Source: a virus
Reading direction: 5' to 3' (one strand)
IMG/VR virus record: IMGVR_UViG_3300037245_000406
Span: 1-27,512 of that record
DNA: 27,512 nucleotides
Shown: in pieces, positions 3,465 to 20,997 of the stretch
How the letters are laid out: each line of letters opens with the position of its first letter
Position numbering within the stretch: position 1 is the stretch's first letter
The notes under the pieces: generated by a model
What the model was told of the DNA's origin: nothing
Databases searched by the model: none
What the model saw: the letters and a program-made list of their open reading frames with translations, nothing else
Position numbers and translations under genes: made by a program

Positions 3465-3624
3465 CGTCGTCTCCTTCTCCTGAACAGTGGTCACAAAATA
3501 TGTCACCCGTCGCGCGGCTCTCATGCCAACAAGACTCACAGACCTCGCAATAGCAGCCTTTGCAAACGCCGAAGCATTCATCAAACTCCCATGTGGCAGT
3601 ACAGGTTTCGCATGTACGTTCCAT
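3457..3624 (-). CDS. Ten-cysteine putative zinc-binding miniprotein (55 aa)
   Basis: A short gene starting MERTCETCTATWEF with an AGGAG site 7 nt upstream and a TGATG overlap with the preceding stop; it ends 8 nt into the next gene. Ten of 55 residues are Cys (5, 8, 17, 21, 24, 26, 29, 32, 44, 47). They form CxxC pairs at 5/8, 21/24, 26/29, 29/32 and 44/47, and the protein ends in an acidic tail (GEGDDDV). The spacing suggests at least two zinc sites, as in zinc-ribbon or treble-clef miniproteins. Target unknown; coupling on both sides makes the coding call firm. Confidence 0.75.
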   Translation of the reverse strand: MERTCETCTATWEFDECFGVCKGCYCEVCESCWHESRATGDIFCDHCSGEGDDDV

Positions 3625-3953
3625 CAGTCGACTCCTTTCGCTTGGTAGTAGGTGCAGACGGCCTCAGCTAAACCGCCACGGTCTCTGGCGGCCTGGGCCA
3701 GCACATCCCCCGCCTCGACCACCTTCCGCAGCCGGTCACGCTCGGCGGTGAGTTTCTTGTTCTGCTCGAATACGTCGTGCTCTTTAAGCCACTCGAAATA
3801 TGGATTGACACCGCCCGCGATGTCGCGCTGAATCTCGGCACACCCGTAAGCTCCACCGATAATAGTGTTCGCCCACTTTGGAAGTTCATGGCACCTTTCC
3901 ATCAACTCAAACAGGGCGCCGTCTTTGATTTCAAGTTCACGTTGTGGGTTCAT
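3624..3953 (-). CDS. Hypothetical protein with C-terminal coiled coil (109 aa)
   Basis: Start MNPQRELEIKDGALFELMER with a GGAGG site 8 nt upstream; an in-frame Met ten residues earlier lacks a ribosome site. The middle contains GGAYGCAEIQRDIAGGVNPY and the C-terminal half a probable coiled coil (QNKKLTAERDRLRKVVEAGD) followed by an Ala-rich helix. Ends in TGATG coupling to the ten-Cys miniprotein. Family not recognised. Confidence 0.75.
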   Translation of the reverse strand: MNPQRELEIKDGALFELMERCHELPKWANTIIGGAYGCAEIQRDIAGGVNPYFEWLKEHDVFEQNKKLTAERDRLRKVVEAGDVLAQAARDRGGLAEAVCTYYQAKGVD

Positions 3954-4789: not shown

Positions 4790-5092
4790 TTACTCCCAAC
4801 GTATCATGTTATCAAGCGCATTCAGGGTGAGGGATACGCTAATCCATTCATGCCACCATGCCCGTCTGAGTTTGGGCGTGTCAAGTCCACCGTCGTCGTG
4901 CTTCGCTTGTTCCAGATCAGTAACCGCCATGTTGAACTTGATGCCAGTAGAATGGCCCTCAGTGATAAGCTCTTGATACTCGGCTTCCAAGTTGTCCAGG
5001 CCTTTGCCCAGCTGCTGCTCTATCGTCGGGTCTTCAGGTGGTGGCTCTTCGGTTCGACGCTCTACCGCGAGTCTGGTTTGTTCGCTGTTCAT
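4790..5092 (-). CDS. Hypothetical helical protein coupled to the ATPase (100 aa)
   Basis: ATGA overlap with the ATPase stop fixes the start (MNSEQTRLAVERRTEEPPPE). A Pro/Glu-rich N-terminus is followed by a coiled-coil-like helix (IEQQLGKGLDNLEAEYQELI) and Trp-rich segment (KLRRAWWHEWISVSL). The tight coupling suggests a partner of the Rad50-like ATPase, but no family is recognised. The 76-nt gap after it contains only a weak GGGTC/GGCCC hairpin and the next ribosome site. Confidence 0.7.
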   Translation of the reverse strand: MNSEQTRLAVERRTEEPPPEDPTIEQQLGKGLDNLEAEYQELITEGHSTGIKFNMAVTDLEQAKHDDGGLDTPKLRRAWWHEWISVSLTLNALDNMIRWE

Positions 5093-6375
5093 GATTTCAC
5101 CCGTCCGTCTTCGATCACCAGCGAGGTCCGGTCGTCAACCTGGATGCGTGCGGCGAACACCTGTGCGTCGTACTTCTCGGCAATCTCTTCGATCACGGCC
5201 AACCCCTTGTCGTCTACACCTGACGCCTCGTCGATGAACATCACGTTCAGATCCGGGTGACGTGCTGCACCGATGGCAACCGATACCTCGATCTTCTCGC
5301 GGTTGCTGGCCACGGATAGCGGCTGGCCCTTGTAGAGCACGCACCCGCTTTCGTCGAACGACAGACCGTCAATCGGGAACTTGGCAGCGGCGAGCCGGGT
5401 CTGGCGTTCTGTCTTGACGGCTTCGATTTCTTCCGTCTTGGTGCCCGATGCCTTGTCGAGCGGCGCGAGGTTGGATTTCAGTTCAGCGTGGGCCCGGTTC
5501 GACCGCGCCTTGTCGTTCGTTGCGTCTGCGCTTTCGATGCTGTCTCTGATGGCGTCTTCGTCGATGTTGACGAACTCGCCCATTTTGCCCCCCCACTTGG
5601 CGTAGGCGGCGTCGAGTTCGATCCTGTTTGCCTCGTGCTTTAACAGGCTTGCGGTTGCCTCTCTGATTTCTTGTTGGAGGCGTTCGACGATGGCGATGTT
5701 CTCTTCGACTTCACGCGACACCTCATTAGACCGCATGCAGAGCTGGGTAAGTTCTCCGTTGTGTTCCTGTGCCGCTGTCAGCTTGGACATGAGTTCCGAC
5801 ACGTCGACGGACGCCGTCACCTCGGGATACGTCTGCATCCCCGACAGCCGAGCCTGCCCGTCTTTCAGTCGCCGGTTAATGTCGGCCCGCTCGTTGTAGA
5901 GCTTCAAGTGTTTGGCGCTCAGGTCGGAGAAGTCGAGTTCCGCTGTCCGCATCAGAATGTCGGCCTGAATCTGGTCGCCCTTGGCTGTGCCCTCCATGTT
6001 GAAAAACTCCATCGGGTCGTAGCTACGCGGCCCCACCAAGGCCTTGAGAAACCCACGGGCCGGGGTCTGTGGCTTGCCGTCTTTGTCTTTGACAGTTAGC
6101 TTCTCCGCACCCTCTGGCGACACGCTGAACTTTACGATATAGTCGGTGTCCATGTCCCCTAGTTCAAGCCGCACGTCACCCTGTTTCATGGCGTCATTGA
6201 CGATCTTCTCCGGGAACGCTGTCTTGCCGAACAGGGCGCAGATCATGGCCCTGATAGCAGAAGACTTGCCCGCCTTGTTGTCGCCGCTGATTACTTCCAA
6301 CACGCCCTTGGTGAACTTGGCATCCACTGCCAGCACCCGCATCATCCCGGAAATGTTCGCACTCAGAATCTTCAT
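5089..6375 (-). CDS. Rad50/RecF-like AAA ATPase (SMC-type), recombination-associated
   Basis: The 428-aa protein starts MKILSANISGMMRVLAVDAK after an AAGGGGAG site. It has a Walker A at residues 31-39 (GDNKAGKSS) and a central coiled coil (about 150-330; ERADINRRLKDGQARL and REVEENIAIVERLQQEIREA). An ABC-like signature region (PLSVASNREKIEVSVAIG) and Walker B (LNVMFIDEASG, Asp382/Glu383) follow. The layout is that of short SMC-family ATPases such as RecF or phage gp46/SbcC-type proteins, with a coiled coil far shorter than Rad50. Downstream of the exonuclease and annealase, it likely assists end processing or repair. There is no separate SbcD nuclease in the window. Confidence 0.85.
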   Translation of the reverse strand: MKILSANISGMMRVLAVDAKFTKGVLEVISGDNKAGKSSAIRAMICALFGKTAFPEKIVNDAMKQGDVRLELGDMDTDYIVKFSVSPEGAEKLTVKDKDGKPQTPARGFLKALVGPRSYDPMEFFNMEGTAKGDQIQADILMRTAELDFSDLSAKHLKLYNERADINRRLKDGQARLSGMQTYPEVTASVDVSELMSKLTAAQEHNGELTQLCMRSNEVSREVEENIAIVERLQQEIREATASLLKHEANRIELDAAYAKWGGKMGEFVNIDEDAIRDSIESADATNDKARSNRAHAELKSNLAPLDKASGTKTEEIEAVKTERQTRLAAAKFPIDGLSFDESGCVLYKGQPLSVASNREKIEVSVAIGAARHPDLNVMFIDEASGVDDKGLAVIEEIAEKYDAQVFAARIQVDDRTSLVIEDGRVKS

Positions 6376-6398: not shown

Positions 6399-6541
6399 AA
6401 AAAATCGTGGCCGGTGGGATTCGAACCCACTTTGCGCAACCAGCGCGATCGGGAATTGAACCCGTGTGCAACCAGCACCTAATCCTGGATCGAACAGGAA
6501 TGACCGGATATCTCCGGTGCGGAACCTTCCGCTACGGCCAC
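6399..6541 (-). ncRNA. tRNA-like RNA with three tandem T-arms
   Basis: Intergenic element between the annealase stop (6552) and the ATPase start (6375). A perfect 7-bp acceptor stem (GTGGCCG 6541-6535 / CGGCCAC 6413-6407) is followed by T-A at tRNA positions 8-9 and a 4-bp D-arm (GCGG...CCGC) with a GG loop. Then come hairpin/T-arm pairs: ACCGG...CCGGT; TCCTG-TTCGATC-CAGGA; GTGC-TGGTT-GCAC; CGGG-TTCAATT-CCCG; GCGC-TGGTT-GCGC; GTGGG-TTCGAAT-CCCAC. All three seven-base loops fit the T-loop consensus TTCRANY and recur every 34-35 nt. About 135 nt is too long for a normal tRNA; no CCA is encoded, and a T6 tract (6404-6399) follows two bases after the acceptor. It could be a novel tRNA-derived RNA, a pseudo-tRNA built by duplication, or a transcription end. 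Confidence 0.65.
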
Positions 6542-6551
6542 ATCGTTTCAG

Positions 6552-7340
6552 TTATGGAATCAATTCGCCGCTTGTTAGATCGTATGCGCCGTTGCGGACG
6601 GCCTGCATGATTGCCGCCAAGTTGTCCCCGGTTGGCCTTGCCCCGCCGCACATCTTCTGCAACAACTTCTTCCCATCCCACGAGTCGTCTGATTGGATGC
6701 TCTGCCCGCTCATGGTAATTGAGAGTTCTCCAATCGCCTTGTTGCATTGCTGATCGGTCGCTAATCCGTCGCCCTGTGGCGTGCTGTTGTCGGACCCCTT
6801 GGGTTTCAGGTCTTGGGTGAACAAGTCGGCCAACCCAGTCACCGTGTTAAGTACCGCCGCCACCAATGCCCGCTTGTCGGCCATCTTGATCGATGCGTTC
6901 ATCTGCATACACTTCTCGCCTATGGTGAACGTGGCCGAACCTTCTCCCAACTTGGCCCCGGTGTCATGGCTGTACAGCGTACATTTTCGGATAAACGAGT
7001 CTTTCGGTTTGCCCATCATTTCCCACGTTGCCAGGTCGCTGTCATACTCAGCCCGTAGTTTCAGCAAGTCGCACACGAGCAACGCGCCGGACTTGTACAG
7101 AGACGGCTTTGCTTGCCACTGTAGCGGGTCGGCTTGTTTCGGACTACACCCAGGAGGGAACCCGAAGTGTATCCCCTCTACCAAGTGGGTTTGCAGCCAC
7201 GCGAGAAACGTGTTCCTTGTTTCGTCGTATGCGGCCAACGCCAACTGTTGTTCTTCAACCGGCAACAAGGCCATGCCTTTTTCATAGGTCATTGGCGATT
7301 GGACGACTGTCGTCGTCGGTGTTTCTTTTTGGTCACTCAC
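6552..7340 (-). CDS. Probable single-strand DNA annealing protein (RecT/Rad52-like role)
   Basis: The start is GTG at 7340: GTGA overlaps the exonuclease stop and AAGGGG precedes it. The 262-aa protein has a long N-terminal helix region (EKGMALLPVEEQQLALAAYD) and a core with KPSLYKSGALLVCDLL, then TGAKLGEGSATFT. The helix KMADKRALVAAVLNTVTGLA ends in DLFTQDL. The MADKRALV...DLFTQD pattern recurs, from memory, in phage proteins encoded beside exonucleases and recalls the helix of Rad52-superfamily annealases. Paired with the RecE-like nuclease it would give a two-component recombinase. The family name is uncertain, as the sequence is not classical RecT. Confidence 0.55.
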   Translation of the reverse strand: MSDQKETPTTTVVQSPMTYEKGMALLPVEEQQLALAAYDETRNTFLAWLQTHLVEGIHFGFPPGCSPKQADPLQWQAKPSLYKSGALLVCDLLKLRAEYDSDLATWEMMGKPKDSFIRKCTLYSHDTGAKLGEGSATFTIGEKCMQMNASIKMADKRALVAAVLNTVTGLADLFTQDLKPKGSDNSTPQGDGLATDQQCNKAIGELSITMSGQSIQSDDSWDGKKLLQKMCGGARPTGDNLAAIMQAVRNGAYDLTSGELIP

Positions 7341-8209
7341 GATTGGTTCCCCTTCATGTAGATTTCGTCTGGCAACGCCCACGCGGGCACGCCGATTTCT
7401 TCGTACTCTTCCGCCCACCCCGGCCACATATCCGTGTCGATACACTGCTTGTAGATAGCCAGTGCAGTCCTGAACCGTTCCCACCCCAGCATCAAGGTCG
7501 ATGGTCGCACCCAGTAAACCCGGAGGTCGTACACTGGCGAACTTTTGACGGCCACGAACACGAAGTTATTGAACACCCTACGTTCCGATTTTGGCACACC
7601 GGACTGTTCTTGTGCCGCGTTCAGCCCGTGCATGTAGATCGTTTGCACGTCGTAACCATAGTCGTAGATGTCACGGCTGAACGACTTCGGTCGTGGGTCA
7701 CGCGACATCTTTAAATCCACCACGTTCAAACCCCACAGGAAATCAGCACGACCTTTGAGCCTGATGCCTGTTTCCTCGTCGTCCCACACAAACGACACCT
7801 CGGTTTCTCCGTGCTTGAAGATGTCGCGCGTGCGCTTCTTGGTGGCCAATGCCGCCGCCATGCCCTCGATGTCGTATAGCTCTGACTGTAAGATGATGTT
7901 GGCGGTTGGGTTCTCCGCCCTGAACACCTTGTACGCCTTTGCTGTTCGGGACTTGGCCCCGTCGAATACGAGAACGTCGTTAAAGTTCTCCGGCTCTAAC
8001 CCCAGCGTGTGAAACCCCCGCCCCTTTTCAAACGCCGCTTTCTCTTTGGGGTGAGCCTTGTCCCACTGATACTGCGCAGGCGAATCGTCGATCAATTGGA
8101 ACAGGCTGGACTTTGACGGATACGGCCACTGTCGGTAGTCGTAGTGGGGTACGCCGTGGTACACACCTGGTCCCGGCTGCGGGTTGGCTGGGTCAAGTTG
8201 CTGGTTCAT
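7337..8209 (-). CDS. RecE/exonuclease VIII-like PD-(D/E)XK nuclease
   Basis: The start at 8209 (MNQQLDPANPQPGPGVYHGV) is set by ATGA overlap with the previous stop. The 290-aa protein shows YPSKSSLFQLIDDSP, then GRGFHTLGLEPENF (His67) and a HGETEVSFVWDDEETGIRLK strand pair. KGRADFLWG (Asp156) and VVDLKMSRD (Asp165-x-Lys167) follow, then a helix with YDVQTIYMHGL. These are the hallmark motifs of the RecE C-terminal nuclease fold, which degrades dsDNA 5'-3' to expose a 3' tail. It is directly followed by the annealase gene, a standard phage pairing. Confidence 0.85.
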   Translation of the reverse strand: MNQQLDPANPQPGPGVYHGVPHYDYRQWPYPSKSSLFQLIDDSPAQYQWDKAHPKEKAAFEKGRGFHTLGLEPENFNDVLVFDGAKSRTAKAYKVFRAENPTANIILQSELYDIEGMAAALATKKRTRDIFKHGETEVSFVWDDEETGIRLKGRADFLWGLNVVDLKMSRDPRPKSFSRDIYDYGYDVQTIYMHGLNAAQEQSGVPKSERRVFNNFVFVAVKSSPVYDLRVYWVRPSTLMLGWERFRTALAIYKQCIDTDMWPGWAEEYEEIGVPAWALPDEIYMKGNQS

Positions 8210-8508
8210 CGGATGACCCCCCCCTTGAAATATGCCGACTCCCAACCCTTCATGGCGGTGTCCACGTTACGGCCGGAAACCCCATCCTCGTGGCGATCTG
8301 TCCACATCCCGATATTATCATATAGGCTTTTAGCCGCGTCAACCACCGCCCCCAACTGTCCCGGCTCAATCCCCGCATCGGCAAGGGCTTTGACACAGGC
8401 GGCGGCGTGGGCCTTTTCTTTCTGTGATTCTAACGCTACCCTGTCAAGCTCCTTGTTTATCAGGGCTATTCGCGGGTCTTTTTTGGGCTTCCTTTTCTCA
8501 CGCGCCAT
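8206..8508 (-). CDS. Hypothetical basic N-terminus protein (100 aa)
   Basis: TGATG coupling to the upstream HTH gene defines the start (MAREKRKPKKDPRIALINKE). After a basic tail comes a helix (NKELDRVALESQKEKAHAAA) and a region with GIEPGQLGAVVDAAKSLYDN, then DTAMKGWESAYFKGG. No family is recognised. Coupled downstream to the exonuclease, it may modulate the recombination proteins. Confidence 0.7.
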   Translation of the reverse strand: MAREKRKPKKDPRIALINKELDRVALESQKEKAHAAACVKALADAGIEPGQLGAVVDAAKSLYDNIGMWTDRHEDGVSGRNVDTAMKGWESAYFKGGVIR

Positions 8509-18903: not shown

Positions 18904-20232
18904 TTATCCGTCCTTAACAATCCCCTGGTCGAATAGTTGCTTCGCTACCACGCTCGGAAGATACATCGTCTCGCCGGGCATGTGTTGCACACCGGCAGAG
19001 TCAAACCAGCTTTTCGTGAACGTCACCTTCTCAACCCCGCGCCACACGGCAGCGGGTGCCCCATCAGAATAGAACTTGTCAATCTGTTGTTGAATCGTGT
19101 TCAGGTCGCAACCCGGCCATGATAGTTTCAGTTCAGCGTGACCGACGACAACCCGCGTTGCAGTAAACAGTCTGCCGCCGCCCTCGCGCAAGGTCTGCCA
19201 GAACATCATGTCATCGTCGATCCGGCCTTCGCCCCACTTGCCATCCGACCCCGGCTTGCTCCAGAACCACGGGTGCGGCATCTTCTTCAGGGCCGACACG
19301 CGAATCAGCGTCAAGCCGAAATGCGCCGTGTGGGTTTCGACAAGTTCCGGTTCGAATGCGGACCACGGCACCTGTTGTTTTATCTTGCCGGTCTCGGGAT
19401 CTGCCAGCGTCAACAGCGGCGTCTCGCTCGACCGCTTCGATTGCAGCGGGGCTATCACGTCTGCCTCTGGATGCTCGTTCATCAAGCGGATCAAGGCTTC
19501 AACATCTGCCCGCGTGAACACTGTGTCGTAGTCAATCGCAAGGATCGCGTCAGCACCCTCGTCAATGCACTCGTCGAACGTCCGCTCAAGGCACTGGCCC
19601 CAAAACGCCCCGGTGCATTTGCGTAGCGGAATGTTCAGCGGCATCAGGGCCTGGAACACGCAGAACATGTTGTCGGTGAACGCGAGTCTCGGCATCGACA
19701 TTGCAGCCGATATTGCTTTGACCGGTGGCTTAGTTTCAACCGGCAACACTTCGGCCCCCGCTATCTTGCGGCCCTGACGTCTCAGGCTGATGGTGTACGA
19801 TTCAGTGCGCCCCGGCCGGCCGTCCCACTCTTGGATGTTGCCCAGCCCTGCACCCTTGAACAACCCCTCAAGGGCATCAGTGGTGAACACCGACTTGTGG
19901 TAATCATCGTCGTCTACCTGTGCCCCCATGATAACCGACTGAAGGTCAAGTTCACCGCCACCCTTCTGGTAGTCGCTCACTATCTGCGCAAAGTCGGGAA
20001 CCGCCACCCGCAGCCGTCCGCCTGGGATCAGTACGCGCACCCAATCAGCCACCACTTCTTTAACTTTCTGGTGGCTGAAGTGTTCCAGGATGTGACTCGC
20101 GAGGATCTCCTGTACGCTGTTGTCTGGGTAGTCAAGCGGGTAGGCTTCCGTGCCCAGCTTGTGGTCGATGCTGATGAATCCGGGGATTGCATCTTCGCCT
20201 GCGCCGAGGTTCAATCTGATTTGGTCTGTCAT
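18904..20232 (-). CDS. Methyltransferase-glycosyltransferase fusion (442 aa)
   Basis: ATGA-coupled to the CmoB-like gene. Residues 1-150 form a class I SAM-dependent methyltransferase (LNLGAGEDAIPGFISIDHK, ILASHILEHF, ADWVRVLIPGGRLRVAVPD). A linker precedes a GT-A-like glycosyltransferase: LAFTDNMFCVFQALMPLNIP, ECIDEGADAILAIDYDTVFT (DxD), EADVIAPLQSKRSSETPLLT, HFGLTLIRVSALKKMPHPWF and FTATRVVVGHAELKLSWPGC. The C-terminal 60 residues form a small extra domain. It could decorate virion or host polymers. Placed inside the head operon between capsid and connector genes, it is an accessory insertion. Substrate unknown. Confidence 0.7.
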   Translation of the reverse strand: MTDQIRLNLGAGEDAIPGFISIDHKLGTEAYPLDYPDNSVQEILASHILEHFSHQKVKEVVADWVRVLIPGGRLRVAVPDFAQIVSDYQKGGGELDLQSVIMGAQVDDDDYHKSVFTTDALEGLFKGAGLGNIQEWDGRPGRTESYTISLRRQGRKIAGAEVLPVETKPPVKAISAAMSMPRLAFTDNMFCVFQALMPLNIPLRKCTGAFWGQCLERTFDECIDEGADAILAIDYDTVFTRADVEALIRLMNEHPEADVIAPLQSKRSSETPLLTLADPETGKIKQQVPWSAFEPELVETHTAHFGLTLIRVSALKKMPHPWFWSKPGSDGKWGEGRIDDDMMFWQTLREGGGRLFTATRVVVGHAELKLSWPGCDLNTIQQQIDKFYSDGAPAAVWRGVEKVTFTKSWFDSAGVQHMPGETMYLPSVVAKQLFDQGIVKDG

Positions 20233-20975
20233 TTCTTTGCCCCCCGAACAAAGCCACGTTCGTATGGCACGCGGGTTTTGCCTTCGTAGTTAAGCCGGGA
20301 TGCCTTTACGTCAACGTCCCACCCAGCGGAACCCACCATATGCACAAGGCATCGAAGCGTAGGTGCCCACCAGTTAGTGAGGTTGCCGCCATACTGGTCG
20401 GACGGATAGAACTCCATAACCATCTTGTCGCCGTGGCCAGCCGGTGCGTCTTTTGGCGAGTACGGGCTGAACCTGTCGCTGATTGCCGACTCGACATAGA
20501 TCGAACCGGTGCACACCGCCGACAACCGGTCAAGGGCAAGCAACGGATACCGGCAGTGGTACAGGACACCAAAGCACAACACCACGTCGAACTGCCCCAA
20601 CTCGGCTACATCGTACAACGAACACTCCAACCGCCGAACTTGTTCGTCTGCATAACCAAAAGCATCTTTGCACAGATCGAACGTCTCCCACTTCTGCCGC
20701 GTCACGTTGTCGTTGCGTCCGAGGTAGTCAGAGAAGTCATCGATGGCTACGACCTGTCGGGCACCGCGCTTCAACGCCTCCCACGTCCAGTACCCATCCC
20801 ATGCACCAACATCAAGCACGCGCATACCGGTCATGTCTTCGGGTAGGCCATACGCCTCGGGACACAGTGGAGCCCACCCCGGCGTAACGATTCCACCCGG
20901 TAGCTCGATCTTGTGATACCAGTTCGGTACCGCATCGACTCGGGTCTGTAGGTCAGATTGAGAAAGAACACACAT
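20229..20975 (-). CDS. CmoB/DUF1698-like SAM-dependent methyltransferase (248 aa)
   Basis: The second ATG (MCVLSQSDLQTRVDAVPNWY) is preferred because AAGGGG lies 8 nt upstream; the first ATG at 20981 is only 2 nt from it. Motif I is GMRVLDVGAWDGYWTWEALK, followed by QVVAIDDFSD (acidic loop) and FDVVLCFGVLYHCRYPLLAL. CmoB homologues have the same GVLYHRRSPL-like motif and a late NWWAPTLRCLVHMVGSAGWD region. CmoB transfers a carboxymethyl group from carboxy-SAM to tRNA, but ligand residues for carboxy-SAM cannot be judged here. Coupled to the fusion enzyme, it likely works with it on sugars rather than tRNA. Confidence 0.75.
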   Translation of the reverse strand: MCVLSQSDLQTRVDAVPNWYHKIELPGGIVTPGWAPLCPEAYGLPEDMTGMRVLDVGAWDGYWTWEALKRGARQVVAIDDFSDYLGRNDNVTRQKWETFDLCKDAFGYADEQVRRLECSLYDVAELGQFDVVLCFGVLYHCRYPLLALDRLSAVCTGSIYVESAISDRFSPYSPKDAPAGHGDKMVMEFYPSDQYGGNLTNWWAPTLRCLVHMVGSAGWDVDVKASRLNYEGKTRVPYERGFVRGAKK

Positions 20976-20997
20976 AATCATAACCCCTTCAAAGGTT

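Follow-up and report, generated by a model that had tools for sequence, protein, structure and literature searches.

The window analysed here, a 27,512-base stretch of viral DNA (IMG/VR record IMGVR_UViG_3300037245_000406), encodes on its minus strand a structured RNA of 135 nt (6407–6541) in which a single tRNA-type acceptor stem encloses three T-arms, and this RNA belongs to a class that recurs in unrelated phages. We hold with very high confidence that the structured RNA and its class are real, and consider it probable that this and a tRNA-like maturation are true together. The boldest reading, to which we assign a probability of about 0.45, is that of a new class of viral RNA that repeats the tRNA elbow, would be matured by host tRNA enzymes while unable to decode, and would be used by many phages to divert or hijack tRNA-gripping host factors in a multivalent manner.

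The three-T-arm element, first noticed in a preliminary description, is confirmed. Read 5′ to 3′ on the minus strand, the RNA opens with the acceptor strand GTGGCCG (6535–6541), which pairs at 7 of 7 positions with the closing strand CGGCCAC (6407–6413), and continues with TA at the place of tRNA U8-A9 (6533–6534), a resemblance only, as relatives do not conserve it. Inside the acceptor follow D1, a D-like GG-loop hairpin (GCGG-AAGGTT-CCGC, 6519–6532); H, a closed hairpin that resembles a type II tRNA variable arm and sits at the place of the anticodon arm (ACCGGA-GATA-TCCGGT, core GGAGATATCC, 6503–6518); T1 (TCCTG-TTCGATC-CAGGA, 6483–6499); D2 (GTGC-TGGTT-GCAC, 6466–6478); T2 (ACGGG-TTCAATT-CCCGA, 6449–6465); D3 (GCGC-TGGTT-GCGC, 6434–6446); and T3 (GTGGG-TTCGAAT-CCCAC, 6414–6430), which abuts the acceptor in a 12-bp stack as in tRNA. 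The 7-bp acceptor, the three T-loops 34 and 35 nt apart, the two exact TGGTT hairpins and the lack of an encoded CCA had all been described, and direct reading bears them out: D2 and D3 pair at 4 of 4 positions, T1 and T3 at 5 of 5, and T2, rightly singled out as the sole partial stem, at 4 of 5 (an outer A-A), with the loops of T1 and T2 fitting the T-loop consensus. The enclosed hairpins, however, number seven and not six. The extent first given, 6399–6541, does contain the RNA, but the RNA proper ends at 6407; the T6 tract reported past the acceptor is present (6400–6405, minus strand) but forms no part of the layout, as the 3′ ends of relatives have no conserved T6, and together with the acceptor stem it was not scored as a terminator.

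The fold predicted for 6541–6399 is the one set out above, with a minimum free energy of −65.5 kcal/mol against −47.1 ± 4.3 for shuffled sequences (z −4.3, 0 of 200 as low) and a mean probability of 0.97 for the named pairs (lowest 0.86). The plus strand of the element also folds well (z −5.7), because the reverse complement must fold too; the RNA strand is the minus one, which carries the T-loop consensus, the covariance-model match described below and all the flanking genes. Within the acceptor, the RNA can be divided into three modules of a GG hairpin and a T-arm, the first of which adds the variable-arm-like hairpin. The second and third share 24 identities over 37 columns, which indicates that the window modules are not recent copies of one another. 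When the core of H was searched together with the T-loop that follows it, GGGAGATATCCC turned up in several phage tRNAs, where it forms the variable arm immediately 5′ of the T-arm, and also in five two-T-arm relatives (L382, L411, L483, L494 and L500), as the hairpin preceding T1. This suggests that the first module, with its GG-arm, variable arm and T-arm, reads as a type II tRNA without an anticodon arm.

The RNA was compared with known RNAs that share some of these parts. Like a tRNA, it stacks a 7-bp acceptor on a 5-bp T-arm (T3); unlike one, it has three T-arms, and an anticodon arm with a 7-nt loop and U33 was not found in the element, the hairpin after D1 having a tetraloop. The likeness to type II tRNAs (RF00005; tRNA-Ser, -Leu and -Tyr) thus covers the acceptor, the stacked T-arm, a GG-loop arm and the variable-arm-like hairpin, whereas the three T-arms, the three short-loop GG arms and the missing anticodon arm set it apart. 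The window gave nothing against RF00005 at the gathering score, nor any match at E up to 10, and no gathering-score match to any Rfam 15 family, GOLLD and ROOL included; over the elements of its relatives, the same collection matched nothing except tRNA. ARAGORN sees no tRNA at the element and no tmRNA, and the tmRNA model (RF00023) matched only a 15-nt T-arm, below threshold at 9.4 bits. As in tmRNA, a tRNA acceptor and T-arm are joined to a modified body, but there is no tag reading frame. The original judgement that the order fits neither an ordinary tRNA nor a terminator alone is borne out by these negative searches and by a T6 without terminator support.

The nearest precedent is the species 1 RNA of phage T4 (rnaC), which is stable and has a 3′ end like that of a tRNA. 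T4 rnaC and rnaD (species 1 and 2 RNA) are stable, tRNA-sized small RNAs of a phage, encoded beside tRNA genes, but rnaC has a single T-arm and rnaD lacks one, and our covariance model, which finds only tRNA pairs at that locus, matches neither, so both were rejected as members. We also observed that rnaC (L200 1909–2047) ends in a perfect T-arm, CCGGG-TTCGAAT-CCCGG. GOLLD and ROOL likewise come from phages and prophages, where they lie close to tRNA islands (PMC12286853), but they are hundreds of nucleotides long and have other folds. No description of an RNA such as ours was found in the open-access literature, subscription papers being outside the scope of the search. The class is absent from Rfam and probably new in architecture, its parts being themselves tRNA parts.

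One trap had to be considered: with its sequence TTCGAAN, the tRNA-Ser(CGA) anticodon loop looks like a T-loop, and T1 and T2 could on this account be misread anticodon arms. Such misreading does occur: two two-T-arm matches (L061 and L174) were read as tRNA-Ser(CGA) and left out of the class count, ARAGORN labels parts of two further elements (L102 and L181) tRNA-Ser, and in Streptomyces phage Comrade a tRNA-Ser annotation overlies the element; if the class is what we take it to be, a number of "tRNA-Ser" labels in phages would be mistaken. Position 37 of a tRNA anticodon loop is a purine, however, and T is avoided there, whereas T1 (TTCGATC) and T2 (TTCAATT) would each carry a T at this place, like the majority of the class; T1 and T2 are therefore T-arms. 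With ARAGORN negative in the window and the only 7/7 acceptor enclosing all three arms, we regard the misreading as scarcely credible for the window RNA.

To find relatives, 2.9 million viral contigs were scanned for three T-loops (GTTCRANYC) at similar spacing, stems not being required. A tighter viral scan, run to completion, yielded 111 stretches, many of which are coding repeats with unpaired flanks. A separate group forms 12–15 of the 15 possible T-stem pairs, with the arms set apart by GG-loop hairpins and all three enclosed by an acceptor, and about ten further sequence families from unrelated phages share this layout (L136; L102/L129; L002; L181; L045/L130/L195; L154; L070/L110; L072/L155/L176; L166/L199; and L047, whose third hairpin is longer). 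The window RNA fits this layout, here called class A, with three T-arms, a GG-loop hairpin before each and all of them inside the acceptor, and it has H in addition. L154 is the cultured cyanophage Synechococcus phage S-CRM01, in which the element is unannotated and lies ~8 nt ahead of an annotated tRNA-Ser. Many copies belong to a tRNA array or adjoin one, in the same orientation as the tRNAs and often within tens of nucleotides of one, sometimes within a few, while several, the window copy included, have no tRNA gene nearby. A pattern of the same kind returned at least 119 stretches from bacterial genomes, with no convincing member except L310, an 85-kb Xylanimicrobium pachnodae contig with a tRNA array, which is perhaps a phage or prophage. 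No DNA similar to the window region was found in named phages, nor did the concatenated class A elements match any; a close relative of the window phage with the same element was not found.

A covariance model was built from ten other elements aligned by their parts, with the window left out. It recovered the held-out window at 6541–6407 on the minus strand with 43.6 bits (E 1.5e-10; next match E 0.22), treating H as an insertion, which excludes chance and answers the original suggestion of a layout-based model search. Other held-out elements scored 56.5 (L199) and 45.3 bits (L047), and the bacterial contig L310 was matched at 3785–3927 (41.4 bits) and 3554–3666 (32.5 bits). Tandem ordinary tRNAs mostly reach ~20–36 bits and class members 42–68. 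In the underlying alignment, which was padded by hand since MAFFT on class A alone misaligned the acceptor, 92.6% of cells are paired, compared to 54.9% after shuffling and 38–48% with the partners slid; this figure is an upper bound, the alignment being arranged by structure and its members partly picked by stem pairing. Both sides have changed in 31 of its 34 pairs. A simple acceptor test with offsets was weak, owing to a high background of 6/7 pairs and to some stems that start 1 nt later. The segments before each T-arm in eleven families contain GG in 33 of 33 cases (shuffle expectation 26.4), TGG in 26 (13.4) and TGGT in 16 (4.2), and a GG-loop hairpin is possible in 29 of the 33 (15.2 expected).

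The held-out match and an unguided alignment of a sister class are fairer tests than this structure-arranged alignment. The sister layout (acceptor, T1, T2, variable-like hairpin, T3) was found in 26 Streptomyces phage records of the NootNoot/Faust/Comrade/Moab type, for instance at L458 409–538 (NootNoot) and in L459, L460, L461, L009 and L432, with a conserved AAATAGGGTAGCTCCCGCC. These RNAs are unannotated or partly labelled tRNA-Ser, and lie near tRNAs and some near a tmRNA. On their MAFFT alignment, made without structural guidance, RNAalifold recovered part of the acceptor, the three T-arms and the variable-like hairpin, with compensatory changes in 17 of 21 pairs; the acceptor reads TGAATA/TATTCA in NootNoot, AGAGAG/CTCTCT in Faust and CAGAGT/ACTCTG in Comrade. 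Between the class A families, stems differ completely while the pairing is kept. A second sister type, the two-T-arm elements mentioned above, has D1-H-T1 in common with the window. The parts list of both sister layouts is that of the window RNA, the number and order of the modules being what differs; overall, the modules number two to three, and hairpin order varies between subclasses.

This recurrence bears on the two origins that had been put forward for the element. A new tRNA-derived phage RNA is what the same layout, found in unrelated phages with re-paired stems, now supports, the bases of relatives varying with compensatory changes; the docking scaffold and the tRNA mimic that were offered as examples would be possible forms of it. 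A tandem-duplicated pseudo-tRNA, degraded and without function, has in its favour that every part is a tRNA part, that D2-T2 resembles D3-T3, and that rearranged tRNAs abound in phage tRNA arrays. It is nonetheless disfavoured and very improbable: about ten families re-pair the stems at nearly every position and keep the GG and T-loop motifs in every module, the modules are not recent copies, compensatory changes are seen even among the closely related acceptor stems of the Streptomyces phages, and the window copy is nearly perfect in a fragment of 27,512 bases where ARAGORN finds no tRNA gene.

Several other tRNA-like arrangements were observed during the scans. Streptococcus phages Javan52 (L463 380–860) and JX01 (L462) carry rows of T-arm-bearing tRNA-like RNAs, unannotated in the records viewed and matched in 34 Streptococcus phage records; the Javan52 row ends in an apparent terminator, and the covariance model scores 41.3 bits within it (624–773). 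In L120 (508–632), a stem TAAGAGAG/CTCTCTTA surrounds three back-to-back T-arms with no GG hairpins between them. Ten further loci (L014, L022, L028, L044, L046, L078, L092, L104, L105 and L109) share an element directly 3′ of a phage tRNA; it consists of two T-arms around a TCGYTNNYCGA hairpin, and Rfam gave no match there beyond tRNA.

The genes around the RNA were then considered. The window has phage-type terminase, portal and capsid genes (profile search), and all its clear genes (open reading frames) are on the minus strand. The stop codon of the upstream gene (6552–7484, minus), called an annealase in the preliminary description and matched only by phrog_10048, of unknown function, lies 10 nt before the RNA, and the start codon of an AAA_23/SbcC-like ATPase gene (5089–6375, minus; Pfam AAA_23 E 8.5e-08, phrog_1499 E 2.2e-62) lies 31 nt beyond it. 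An Exonuclease VIII-like gene (phrog_412) occupies 7337–8245, and with the SbcC-like ATPase it flanks the annealase-like gene in what is probably a phage recombination module. Elsewhere, two adjoining methyltransferase-like genes lie inside the structural gene block (18904–20981).

This position, between two co-directional genes, would suit an operon processing signal or stabiliser, cut by tRNA enzymes so that the annealase and ATPase messages become separate, and another copy (L002) begins 4 nt past a gene. A single T-arm with an acceptor would suffice for that purpose, however, leaving three modules unexplained, and the flanking genes vary by family: an exonuclease in L002, a helicase-like ATPase in L102, amidotransferases in L181, a gamma-glutamyl cyclotransferase and an endonuclease in L070, and in L136 a portal and a terminase gene lying on the opposite strand to the element. 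We consider a processing signal distinctly unlikely. Relatives of the window annealase were found at 25 loci (two at ~50% identity), all of which lack the three-T-arm RNA, so the RNA does not go with that gene as a constant leader; a search for relatives of the ATPase gave none. Since the flanking genes differ in every family and annealase relatives occur without the RNA, it quite likely acts in trans and not as the leader of one gene.

For such a trans-acting RNA, we propose the following path. It would be co-transcribed with the flanking phage genes or, in relatives, with phage tRNAs, then probably excised by RNase P and 3′ processing, with CCA added; the tRNA-type acceptor/T-arm end, a 12-bp stack, makes a tRNA-like maturation of the three-T-arm RNA probable. 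In the tRNA elbow, two adjacent D-loop Gs dock on the T-loop. Each GG loop of our RNA would probably dock on a T-loop in the same manner, and the recurrence of this pair of parts suggests as many elbows as there are modules, although the GG loops, mostly of 4–6 nt, are below the length of a real D-loop. As the RNA is unable to decode, we propose that it works through its elbows and its acceptor, several elbows and a single acceptor end being offered to host proteins that recognise tRNA.

Which proteins these would be can be stated less firmly. EF-Tu, the ribosomal A, P and E sites and the L1 stalk all touch the tRNA elbow, and elbow and acceptor are the surfaces they use, so the RNA might bind the translation machinery, favouring phage or slowing host translation. 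Many copies sit in tRNA arrays, as would fit this alternative, and GOLLD, also found near tRNA islands, is reported to bind ribosomes in pull-down experiments (PMC12286853). Several copies, among them that of the window, nevertheless lie in stretches without a tRNA gene, and we judge translation binding rather unlikely. The regular repetition of docking partners could also serve an RNA-only scaffold, in which intra- or intermolecular docking of T-loops and GG loops would give a compact or oligomeric particle; ROOL and GOLLD, which lie near tRNA islands, assemble into cages of RNA (PMC12286853). Two to three modules in an order that varies between subclasses are unlike a precise cage, and we regard a scaffold as unlikely.

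The mechanism we favour, tentatively and at less than even odds, is that of an elbow decoy, most likely one that by its multivalency would soak up defence enzymes aimed at tRNA or factors that handle tRNA. Among the factors that hold both elbow and acceptor, immune enzymes that cut tRNA would be plausible targets: one such antiviral nuclease, Cas12a3, touches the backbone of the T-arm and clamps the acceptor/CCA end (PMC12851939). If the wider reading of an RNA class that repeats the tRNA elbow is correct, phages would have evolved RNAs that multiply the feature common to all tRNAs and drop the decoding one. This would open a way into the question of why tRNA arrays are carried by phages, point to new counter-moves against immunity that cuts tRNA, and provide RNA structural biology with a natural scaffold of several elbows.
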